A stretch of 36,402 nt of DNA from Candidatus Omnitrophota bacterium (GTDB lineage: Bacteria > Omnitrophota > Gorgyraeia > DAOVKU01), in the NCBI GenBank assembly GCA_030631665.1, contig DAOVKU010000003.1, forward strand, positions 1 through 36,402, written 5' to 3'. Each line of letters starts with the position of its first letter. Within the stretch, counting starts at the first letter, position 1. The position numbers were made by a program, and so were the translations under genes. The notes under the pieces are model-generated. The model was given only the letters and a program-made list of their open reading frames with translations. It was not told the DNA's origin and did not search any database. This document shows positions 17,593 through 20,531 of this stretch, one piece after another.

Positions 17593-19590
17593 TTAGGCCT
17601 GGCAGGTTGCGTTTTTGCCCTCTTCTTTAGCTTGATAAAGGGCTGTGTCTACTTTTTTGAGCAATTCTGATTTAGATGTGGCCGAGGTAGGATAATTTGC
17701 TACACCTAAACTAACGGTTAATTTTATAGGTTCGTCTGTTGAAGAAGAAAAATCATAATTTTTCACCACACGCCTCATTCTTTCAGCAAGATAAAAGGTT
17801 CCGTCTTTATCTGTTTCAGGTAAAAGAATCATAAATTCTTCTCCGCCGCATCTGGCTACAACATCGACATTGCGGCAGATTTCCTTTAAAATTGAACTCA
17901 ACTCTTTCAAGACAATATCTCCCTGCGGGTGACCATGGGTATCGTTTATTTTCTTAAAGCCGTCTATATCCAGCATTATAAACCCTAAAGGTTCCTGATA
18001 TCTTTCGGCTCTTTTTAATTCTTTATCAATTTGCTCTTTTAGGTAACGATAACCGTACAGACCGGTTAAACCATCTCTATTTGAAAGTTCTTTTATTCTT
18101 TTGTGGAGAGCGGCGTTGTTAATGGCCGGGATAGAACGCTGAGCAACAATGGAAAATAGCTTAAGGTCTTCTTCCGCGAAAGCATCCTTTTTTGAATGGC
18201 TCATAGCCAACAAGCCCATAACCTTATCCGCATTATGGAGCAGTTCCGCCTGAAAAGAGCTTACTATGTCTTCTTCTTTAAAGCCTTCGGTGACAATGGC
18301 CGGACCGTCGAAACGGTTAAGGGTAACCTTATCTTTTGAAAGCATCTTATGAGTAAGTTTATTGAATGAGTCAATAATCTTTAATTTAAACTTTTTGACT
18401 TCGGCCTCCGTGGCCGGATATTTAATGCTTATAATAAGTTCTCCCTGAGATTTCTCGTCAACTAATAAAAGGCCGCAGAAATGAAAATCAACTAATTGTT
18501 CAACTATTTCGATAACGGCATTTATGGTCTGGCGATAGTTAAGATCGGCGGTTACAATTTTGTTTACCTCATCGGAAATAGTGGTTTCATAAAGTTCTTT
18601 GTCAAGAAATTGGTTTGCTTCTATTAAAATTTTATTTGCTCCCTCTAATTTTTTCAGCCGCTTCTCGGTCCCATCAAGCCTTGCGCAAAGTTTGGAGCTT
18701 TGAAAGCCAAAAGAAATTTGATTGACTAAAATCATAAGCAGGTTTAAATCGTCTGTGTTGTAGGCCTCTTTGTTAATCTTGTTGTTGATGTTGATAACAC
18801 CCATGGTATCCGCAAATTTCACGGGTACCGAGAGAAAAGACTTGGTGTAATATTTATCGTTGTTTTCTTTATAAAAACGGCCATCCTTTTCTATGTCACA
18901 GACAAGTAAAGGATAATTCTGCTGAGCCACCCATCCGGAGATACCCTCCCCAAATCTAATTTTTGTATCTAAAACTATATTCTCATTTAATCCGGTAGCG
19001 GCTTTGATAATAAGAACATTTGAATCTTTATCTGCTAACATCAAAGAGCCGAGTTCAGATTTAAGTATAACTGTCATTGCTTCAATTAGCTGCTGAAAAA
19101 TTTTCTGAACAACAAGAGAATTTAAATCCGAACTTTCCTGATAAGCCCGGGTTAAATTATTTATAATTTCATTAAATTTTTTAGTTTTATCTAAAAAACT
19201 GCTAAAATTTATATTCTTTGAAAAATGAGAGATCAAGTCTTTTAATTGCTCGCCTATATTCTCTTTCTCAAGCGGCTTTAAGAGATAATCATCTGCGCCG
19301 GCCTTTATGCTCCAGAATTTCAATCTATCTTTTGGTTTGTCTGTAAGAATAATGATGGGAATATCGCGATATTCTTCTTTATTTTTCAAGAGTTTACAAA
19401 TCTGATAATCACTGATATCGCCTATGGCCGGATTTAGAAAAATCAGCTGAGGTTTGACCTTATAGACAGTTTCCAACCCTTCCAGGCCGCTTGAAACAGA
19501 AATGGTTTCAAAACCCAACCCTTCCAGGCCTTTGTTTAGAAGATTAACGGTATCAATATCGTTTTCGAAAATTACAGCTTTACTCTTCAT
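17593..19590 (-). CDS. Diguanylate cyclase with REC, two GAF and GGDEF domains
   Basis: 665 residues. Domains in order: receiver-like (1-122), a linker helix, GAF1 (about 150-300), GAF2 (about 345-495) and GGDEF (about 500-662). The catalytic motif GGEEF is at 582-586 and the inhibitory I-site RxxD (R573-N-V-D576) lies exactly five residues before it, so it should make c-di-GMP from two GTP with product inhibition. In the receiver the phosphoacceptor Asp is replaced by Asn53 (IFLNPAIGD) and one acidic-pocket residue is Asn10, while T83 and K105 are kept; phosphorylation is therefore unlikely. GAF domains probably sense a small ligand or redox state. The gene stands alone with its own promoter beside the polysaccharide export operon, a common c-di-GMP target (inference). 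Confidence 0.93.
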   Translation of the reverse strand: MKSKAVIFENDIDTVNLLNKGLEGLGFETISVSSGLEGLETVYKVKPQLIFLNPAIGDISDYQICKLLKNKEEYRDIPIIILTDKPKDRLKFWSIKAGADDYLLKPLEKENIGEQLKDLISHFSKNINFSSFLDKTKKFNEIINNLTRAYQESSDLNSLVVQKIFQQLIEAMTVILKSELGSLMLADKDSNVLIIKAATGLNENIVLDTKIRFGEGISGWVAQQNYPLLVCDIEKDGRFYKENNDKYYTKSFLSVPVKFADTMGVININNKINKEAYNTDDLNLLMILVNQISFGFQSSKLCARLDGTEKRLKKLEGANKILIEANQFLDKELYETTISDEVNKIVTADLNYRQTINAVIEIVEQLVDFHFCGLLLVDEKSQGELIISIKYPATEAEVKKFKLKIIDSFNKLTHKMLSKDKVTLNRFDGPAIVTEGFKEEDIVSSFQAELLHNADKVMGLLAMSHSKKDAFAEEDLKLFSIVAQRSIPAINNAALHKRIKELSNRDGLTGLYGYRYLKEQIDKELKRAERYQEPLGFIMLDIDGFKKINDTHGHPQGDIVLKELSSILKEICRNVDVVARCGGEEFMILLPETDKDGTFYLAERMRRVVKNYDFSSSTDEPIKLTVSLGVANYPTSATSKSELLKKVDTALYQAKEEGKNATCQA

Positions 19591-19599
19591 AATAGAAAA

Positions 19600-19624
19600 G
19601 GAGCCCCTTCTGTTTAACGGCTCC
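19600..19624 (-). promoter_or_regulatory. Hairpin next to the cyclase start codon
   Basis: On the minus strand GGAGCC (19619-19624) pairs with GGCTCC (19600-19605) across a 13-base loop, followed by TTTTCTATT and then the ATG. No ordinary Shine-Dalgarno lies between hairpin and ATG; the only candidate (AAGGGG) is inside the loop and 3-prime arm. The structure looks like a weak terminator or a ribosome-site sequestering stem. It sits at the end of a leader of about 160 bases. Confidence 0.45.
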
Positions 19625-19755
19625 CCCTAATAAATAAATGTATCCAGACAACTTAGTTAATAACCTCTTTTTTTTATCTAAAATCGCCTCAGATTTAGTA
19701 TACCTCCAAAATGGAAACTTTTCAAGCATTTAATTAAATTAAAGAGATTTATAAA

Positions 19756-19783
19756 ATTTTACCATATTTTCGAATATTGTCAA
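19756..19783 (-). promoter_or_regulatory. Sigma70-type promoter of the diguanylate cyclase gene
   Basis: Minus strand TTGACA (19778-19783), 16-bp spacer, TAAAAT (19756-19761). This predicts a start near 19749 and a 160-base leader. The 347-bp gap 19591-19937 thus holds, from right to left, three structured repeats, this promoter, the leader and the hairpin at the start codon; I see no gene in it. Confidence 0.7.
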
Positions 19784-19842
19784 GGGATTAAATTGCTTTT
19801 TTTAAGAAATATTTTGCTTTACTTTAAATAAAAGAGCGCCCT

Positions 19843-19930
19843 TTAGTCGAAGACTACCCTGCGGGTTACCAGAATATACTTTTAGTCAAAGACTACTCTT
19901 CGAGTTAGTCGAAGACTGCTTTTCGAATTA
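19843..19930 (-). repeat. Three 26-bp repeats, each a pair of mini-hairpins
   Basis: Units at 19905-19930, 19882-19907 and 19843-19868. On the minus strand each unit is a first hairpin followed by AGTC-TTY-GACT. The first hairpin is ACCC-GCA-GGGT in the unit at 19843 and ACTC-GAA-GAGT in the unit at 19882, a compensatory pair change; the unit at 19905 is degenerate in this arm. Two units overlap by three bases. They lie just after the stop of the secreted protein gene at 19938. No spacers of CRISPR kind are present. Confidence 0.6.
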
Positions 19931-19937
19931 GCTCATC

Positions 19938-20531
19938 TTATCTTAATTTTTGTCTATTTGTAAAGGCAATATCATCAATATAGATAATGCCTTCTTTTTC
20001 GGTGGCTATGATATCATCAAAGATGATAACAAGCTCGGATATGTTGCTAAAATCACTTATGCCTTTAAAATCTTTAAAAGGCACGACGATTTTTGTCCAG
20101 TTATCGCTGACACCGGTAACTATAAACCTGCCGATATCACCTTGTTCATTCTTTAATTCAATCTTGAACCTGGTCGTATAACCTGCGTCAGGATCACCTT
20201 TCACCCAGAAAACAAGCGCATTATAACTAGAAAGGTCATTGCCTTCCAGCTTTGTCCAGAAACCGTTATAAGCCGGATTGGGGGAATCTACATCATATTC
20301 CAGCTTAAGTGAAGCGCCTTTTTTGCCATGCTTTACTTCGGTATCAAACGTCTCAAGGCACCCTTGAGTTGTATCAGCAGGGTCTTTGTCCCAAGCACCC
20401 ATTCCCCCGCCAAAATCATTTATACGGTCGCTGTCAAAATCCGTCAATTTCAAAGTAACGGCTTCGGCGCTAAAAGCAAAAACCAAAACGACCGTCAAAA
20501 CAAGTAATAACTTTAATGCGTATCTATCCAT
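19938..20531 (-). CDS. Secreted protein with a carbohydrate-binding-like (CBM11/CIA30-like) domain
   Basis: 197 residues. A clear signal peptide (1-24, LKLLLVLTVVLVFAFSAEA) precedes one beta-sandwich domain: it opens with LKLTDFDSDRINDFGGGMGAW, continues with GKKGASLKLEYDVD and NALVFWVKGD, and ends in IIYIDDIAF. This strand pattern is that of CBM11/CIA30-type jelly rolls that bind glycans or stabilise complexes. No catalytic residues or anchor are visible, so it is probably periplasmic or released. The start is supported by AGGAGGTGAAGA before the ATG. It has its own promoter and follows the PEP-CTERM gene after that gene's terminator. The exact family is uncertain. Confidence 0.75.
   Translation of the reverse strand: MDRYALKLLLVLTVVLVFAFSAEAVTLKLTDFDSDRINDFGGGMGAWDKDPADTTQGCLETFDTEVKHGKKGASLKLEYDVDSPNPAYNGFWTKLEGNDLSSYNALVFWVKGDPDAGYTTRFKIELKNEQGDIGRFIVTGVSDNWTKIVVPFKDFKGISDFSNISELVIIFDDIIATEKEGIIYIDDIAFTNRQKLR

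Follow-up and report, generated by a model that had tools for sequence, protein, structure and literature searches.

A 20-bp double-hairpin repeat of an Omnitrophota genome is probably a very small mobile element with TWA target duplications

We find that three 26-bp repeats in a 36,402-nucleotide stretch of DNA from a Candidatus Omnitrophota bacterium (the whole stretch is called the window here) probably represent a non-autonomous mobile double-hairpin element of very small size that inserts at TWA with a 3-bp duplication. We put the probability of this reading, which is drawn from sequence comparisons, at roughly 0.8. The units are dispersed through the genome, one exact comparison of an empty with a filled site is available, flanking triplets tend to agree, copies are nested, and some copies lie in frame within genes. 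That the units look like insertions with target duplications is the main point that a first-pass annotation of this DNA had missed.

Results

A short array behind a stop codon

Each unit in the window is 26 bp long and consists of a 20-bp core framed by TTAs (Table 1). The usual core can be written as two 11-nt hairpins closed by A-T, AGTC-GAA-GACT and then ACTC-TTC-GAGT. Both 4-bp stems are kept in two of the three window copies; copy 3 retains the first stem alone, and its second stem reads GCTT/GAAT with a C-A mismatch. The TTA at 19905-19907 is common to copies 2 and 3, so that these units have a period of 23 and overlap by 3 bases. The first-pass annotation described three double mini-hairpin repeats of 26 bp, and their places and lengths hold, but it overlooked both this overlap and the loss of the second stem in copy 3. 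The change that it reported between ACCC/GGGT and ACTC/GAGT does exist and does preserve pairing, although it sits in the second stem on the plus strand (the first on the minus strand).

The array is located between the stop of a gene encoding a CBM11-like protein, whose N-terminus is signal-like by reading, and the start of a GAF/GGDEF gene, as had been noted before in terms of a secreted protein and a cyclase. Most likely, the window array is a neutral passenger behind the stop codon. The 7-bp palindrome formed where copies 2 and 3 meet resembles a terminator on either strand in a simple scan (2 found versus 0.2 expected), and the simplest reading is that it is a by-product of the tandem arrangement. 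A weak match at L007:1251-1553 (contig C5) is coding and by reading resembles a paralogue of the window CBM11-like protein.

Table 1. Coordinates of the repeat units, their neighbors and elements at other loci. Positions without a locus name are those of the window.
Feature	Position	Strand	Description
Copy 1	19843..19868	+	TTA[GTCGAAGACTACCCTGCGGG]TTA; 20-bp core 19846-19865; sequence and degenerate-pattern match
Copy 1, first hairpin	19845-19855	+	AGTC-GAA-GACT
Copy 1, second hairpin	19856-19866	+	ACCC-TGC-GGGT
Copy 2	19882..19907	+	TTA[GTCAAAGACTACTCTTCGAG]TTA; core 19885-19904
Copy 2, hairpins	19884-19894, 19895-19905		
Copy 3	19905..19930	+	TTA[GTCGAAGACTGCTTTTCGAA]TTA; core 19908-19927
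Copy 3, first hairpin	19907-19917		intact
Copy 3, second hairpin	19918-19928		decayed
Junction palindrome of copies 2 and 3	19897..19915	.	7-bp, TCTTCGA-GTTAG-TCGAAGA
CBM11-like protein gene	19938..20531	-	PF03425, 2e-08; stop at 19938, 8 bp from copy 3
Receiver-GAF-GGDEF protein gene	17593..19590	-	PF00990, 5.7e-47; start at 19590; downstream on same strand
Two tandem longer elements	L166:2320-2412 (G000 contig C22)		in frame in a 904-residue M16 peptidase-like ORF
IS605-type elements with longer copies	L220:1220-2897; L221:1442-2788 (G050)		

Dispersal in the genome

Using a degenerate pattern with at most 3 mismatches, we find the short unit in 12 distinct places of the 1.53-Mb genome, on contigs C4 (2), C30, C34 (3 in tandem), C35, C84 (3, the window), C88 and C97, while the reversed pattern gives 0 matches. 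The genome search proposed in the first-pass annotation thus adds nine copies to the three in the window. Scanning 70 loci by structure only (198,566 bases; the loci overlap and were picked via earlier matches) returned just copies of the short unit, and 0 in three mononucleotide shuffles. A chance repeat is ruled out by these two controls. By a simple rule that counts ORFs of at least 80 codons, 11 of the 12 short copies are intergenic and one is at the end of an ispH-like gene. In the broad sense of a miniature mobile element, defined by dispersal in unrelated places, the 12 places of the short unit are accompanied in the same genome by at least 43 model matches to a longer family, which is described below.

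A TWA duplication at a probable insertion site

At locus L019, a short unit lies within another repeat (CCTTTTA-20 bp-TTAACCCTAAAGGGTAG), and the same stretch without the unit, the empty site CCTTTTAACCCTAAAGGGTAG, is present at L025, L037 and L044. Relative to the empty site, the filled site has gained 23 bp, with TTA duplicated. This is the only short copy for which a target-site duplication can be read from an exact comparison, and flank concordance stands alongside it; for the copies at L005 and L006, which are also within such repeats, no exact empty site was found, the nearest being one base off. The identical core is flanked by TTA on both sides at L005 and L006, but by TAA on both sides at L008 and L019. 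Concordant flanks of an identical core are predicted by a 3-bp target duplication and not by an end that the element carries. In total, the same triplet stands on either side in 11 of the 12 short copies and one is discordant. Movement is deduced here from repeats within the genome and from protein families, and the relatives examined belong to the same class or phylum.

Structure of the short unit

The first stem is invariant in all 12 copies. In the second stem, C-G is replaced by T-A in two copies and T-A by C-G in one; a version ATTC/GAAT occurs in two copies other than those of the window, and double changes are found in two of the four pairs. Of 500 shuffles, 4 match the double-hairpin structure in cells paired and likewise in the covariation score, 26 match it in pairs with a double change, and all match it in pair types; these statistics ignore the relatedness of the copies. 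Covariation, the check named in the first-pass annotation, is present to some extent in the short unit, where it comes from two pairs and three cells, and is strong in the longer elements. Selection on structure, as that annotation had suggested, is plausible from these few changes, but the second hairpin of copy 1 could also be a swapped module and not a compensatory point change.

An alternative that we consider unlikely, while giving it some weight, treats the short unit as an ordinary mini-element with terminal inverted repeats that a DDE transposase moves; the near-perfect 26-bp palindrome would then form one 7-bp hairpin, and the two small hairpins would be incidental. DDE chemistry is compatible with a short target duplication, the consensus core is predicted to fold as one 7-bp hairpin (-5.8 kcal/mol), and 95.2% of the pairs of this hairpin are kept. 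However, its covariation is matched by 127 of 500 shuffles, compared to 4 of 500 (cells paired and covariation score) or 26 of 500 (pairs with a double change) for the double hairpin, and window copy 1 breaks it. Also against a DDE origin, terminal inverted repeats are absent by reading from the longer elements, and the own genome (93% complete, 128 contigs) has no DDE_Tnp_1 match. A strict MITE would have terminal inverted repeats that match those of an autonomous parent; the short unit is near-palindromic, and no such parent came to light in the searches described here. None of the window copies folds much better than its own shuffles: the predicted fold of copy 1 is two mini-hairpins (-2.5 kcal/mol; 32 of 200 shuffles match), and that of copy 2 includes the first stem alone.

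When the second hairpin is read on the other strand, the loops of the short unit are GAA in 20 of 24 cases and GCA in one. In DNA, C(GAA)G loops have an unusual stability, which would fit a single-stranded DNA stage of the double-hairpin element. The concept of a stable GAA-loop DNA hairpin is found in the portion of PMC10527192 on which we draw, and GCGAAGC and “extraordinarily stable” appear side by side in the literature.

A longer family with the same layout

The repeat that hosts the short copy at L019 belongs to a second, larger family, with 52 genome matches to one query that itself contains a short copy. Thirty-five longer copies of 46-50 nt align as TW-[AGRCC..GGYCT]-[AYCC..GGRT]-WA, where one base of the first hairpin stays unpaired. 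For the 13 pairs of this alignment, 95.6% of cells are paired and 43 cells carry a double change, compared to a shuffle mean of 13 and a number that 0 of 500 shuffles reach; the number of pair types is ordinary (74 of 500 shuffles). The longer copies are nested and tandem, and TWA is again common to neighbors. From 107 aligned matches we obtained 85 distinct placed copies, 68 with TWA on both sides and 17 without it on one side. The flanks are concordant in 55 of the 68 (p 1.9e-5) and discordant in 13, and are concordant in 42 of 50 (p 7e-4) when tandem copies are excluded. The outer triplets are part of the model to which this alignment was fitted, and not every copy is independent. At L019:1431-1433 and L057:1490-1538, the longer element's own TAA seems by reading to be the stop codon of the preceding gene; an insertion into a TAA stop with TAA duplicated would be harmless.

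The short and the longer units have a grammar in common (TW, two A-T-closed hairpins, WA), and copy 1 has a weak match to the longer-family model (16.4 bits, E 0.031). Given this layout and match, we infer that the short unit is probably the smallest relative of the longer family. The bare grammar is not enriched. A scan for perfect stems, which misses the bulge of real longer elements, gave closing bases A 35, T 35, G 3 and C 6 in the own genome (20 stretches and the window) and A 12, T 21, G 31 and C 26 in 20 stretches of genome G054, so that A closing is no commoner than the others across these stretches. With TWA flanks required, the scan gave 12 A/T-rich-looking rows in the own genome and three rows in G054 that are true elements.

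In a boundary test of 20 loci (18 repeats from G024, G030 and G324, and one each from G155 and G054), we find elements in eight, namely six from G024 and those from G155 and G054; the element pattern is absent from the G030 and G324 repeats. In several G024 copies the sequence in common extends outside TWA, which counts against clean boundaries there. At L242-L247 (G024), longer elements are part of wider arrays beside another hairpin module (for example, TTCCGCCTCTGGCGGAA), with flanks that are partly alike.

Copies inside genes

Most longer copies (63 of 87) are intergenic and 12 of 87 are within ORFs of at least 80 codons, some of them short and doubtful. In ArgC and Maf (both from G098), solved relatives have gaps totalling 15 residues at the position of the element. 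By reading, longer copies are also in frame in an SMC gene (G070), in an M16 peptidase gene of the own genome and in TnpB (G050). In the last example, each of two IS605-type elements has two inverted longer copies, one beside an end of the IS and the other in frame close to where tnpB ends. The G050 copies thus travel with the IS, which is hitchhiking and not mobilisation. Alignment of this TnpB to a solved structure stops at the element, and an empty-site search in 14 genomes has G050 as its sole match, with its two copies both filled.

These locations bear on a different explanation, that the units act behind genes at the RNA level or in regulation (as terminators, stabilisers of mRNA 3' ends or processing sites) and owe their dispersal to this usefulness, with the covariation reflecting RNA function. 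The intergenic position of most short and longer copies is as expected for such structures, as is the terminator-like junction of copies 2 and 3. However, in-frame copies within conserved genes, the nesting of copies and the precise gain of 23 bp with TTA duplicated are not, the predicted fold is weak, and Rfam gave 0 matches at E up to 1 for window positions 19500-20200 and 0 at the gathering score for 6 loci with longer elements. We judge an RNA-level role improbable.

Candidate mobilising enzymes

Y1_Tnp is found in 27 of 33 element-bearing genomes and in 91 of 114 other genomes of the class (p 1.0), and is absent in 6 of the 33, some of which are incomplete. DDE_Tnp_1 is found in 9 of the 33 and in 20 of the 114. 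The presence of either family fails to track the elements across the 147 genomes, and the comparison yielded no enzyme to which mobilisation could be assigned. The own genome has one Y1_Tnp gene, L021:963-1713 (G000 contig C3), which is flanked by GGGGACAC repeats.

We give little credence to the proposal that the units are REP/BIME-like elements moved by a RAYT or by another Y1 transposase of the IS200/IS605 type. Several copies do have GTAG-like letters between their hairpins, the palindrome is bulged, and both the Y1_Tnp gene of the own genome and the copies carried by the IS605-type elements of G050 would be in keeping with it. However, REPs have an unpaired GTAG tag at one end of the palindrome, and here the letters are paired and read GTAG or, in many longer copies, ATAG. 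REPs also flank a RAYT gene, and here the Y1 gene is flanked by GGGGACAC instead and shows no association with the elements in the genome counts above. Lastly, a target duplication is seen, which to our knowledge Y1 transposition does not produce. As a side observation, the Y1 gene with its GGGGACAC flanks resembles the TIR-associated Y1 transposases described in the consulted part of PMC3733652.

Distribution and database searches

Among named genomes, those with the nine best ClpC records all belong to Omnitrophota, and Ca. Kappaea is one of them. We find the longer family in at least 33 of 147 genomes of the class (E 0.01). Among 384 listed genomes of the phylum (327 of the same class and 57 not), it is present in at least 57 (E 1e-4), of which 55 are of the same class, including the own genome, and two are of another class with one match each; all these counts are lower bounds, with 41 or 15 candidates scored per genome. 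By comparison, a one-mismatch search of the 384 genomes with the 26-bp unit returned the own genome and a single match in G062, which is within a 566-codon ORF and is probably due to chance. When two mismatches were allowed across 99 genomes, the reversed control had 2 matches outside the own genome. Neither GTDB contigs nor IMG/VR, where own or near-genome records may be left out, gave a match to the exact pattern. In open-licence PMC articles we found nothing on topic regarding palindromic, repetitive or transposable elements of Omnitrophota or Omnitrophica.

Discussion

Based on these data, we propose that a 20-bp core able to form two adjacent mini-hairpins would insert at TWA to give TWA-core-TWA, and that later insertion into a flanking triplet would give tandem copies with a period of 23, as in the window. 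The core would be moved in trans by an enzyme whose cut is staggered by 3 nt, and we infer that the hairpins may persist as a requirement of that enzyme or of a single-stranded DNA stage. A more specific version is possible, and we offer it tentatively. In this version, the 20-bp unit would be among the smallest mobile elements known and the enzyme would read the fold and not the sequence, probably at a single-stranded DNA stage in which either strand can form one C(GAA)G triloop hairpin. The unit would then be one size class of a modular Omnitrophota system of A-T-closed hairpins that are linked at TA and enter TWA sites, including sites within reading frames.

If true, the mobile reading would set a very low size limit for a bacterial transposable unit, at 20 bp plus a 3-bp duplication, and one hairpin grammar would span 20 to ~50 bp. 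It would also show how conserved proteins in a poorly known phylum naturally acquire in-frame insertions of 15 residues, and would pose a testable question, namely which enzyme moves elements that are too small for ordinary transposon ends.

The first-pass annotation could assign the units to no known element type. At the level of families this stands, as Rfam is without a match, but mobile elements that are palindromic and very small are already known as a general kind. One such group, the small dispersed repeats (SDRs) of cyanobacteria, was reportedly described by Elhai et al. 2008, and we know of no TWA-flanked double-hairpin grammar among them. SDRs, which are cited in the sections of PMC2884548 and PMC3116915 that we used, are ~20 bp long, dispersed and tandem, and are presumed to be mobile; in size, dispersal, tandems and presumed mobility they are like the short unit, but they come from a different phylum. 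Mitochondrial double-hairpin elements and yeast GC clusters are, in excerpts of PMC4478555 and PMC2800124, short palindromic mobile sequences of one or two hairpins that merge and shuffle. The mitochondrial elements have two adjacent hairpins in a short mobile unit, a likeness of layout for which we claim no descent; they differ in belonging to organelle genomes and in having other sequences, and those of Allomyces, as far as these excerpts go, are without flanking duplications. Rickettsia palindromic elements (~150 bp, inserted in frame in unrelated genes, according to part of PMC10969869) are likewise palindromic and in frame, but their size sets them apart from the 20-bp and 46-50 bp elements of the Omnitrophota, as does their lineage. 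Finally, the GTAG-tagged REPs and REPINs are, in the portions of PMC3733652 and PMC3116915 available to us, 20-40 bp palindromes, some bulged, that form dimers and tandem groups and are sometimes located in genes. The elements described here resemble them in size, palindromes and tandems, and are distinguished from them by the duplicated target triplet.
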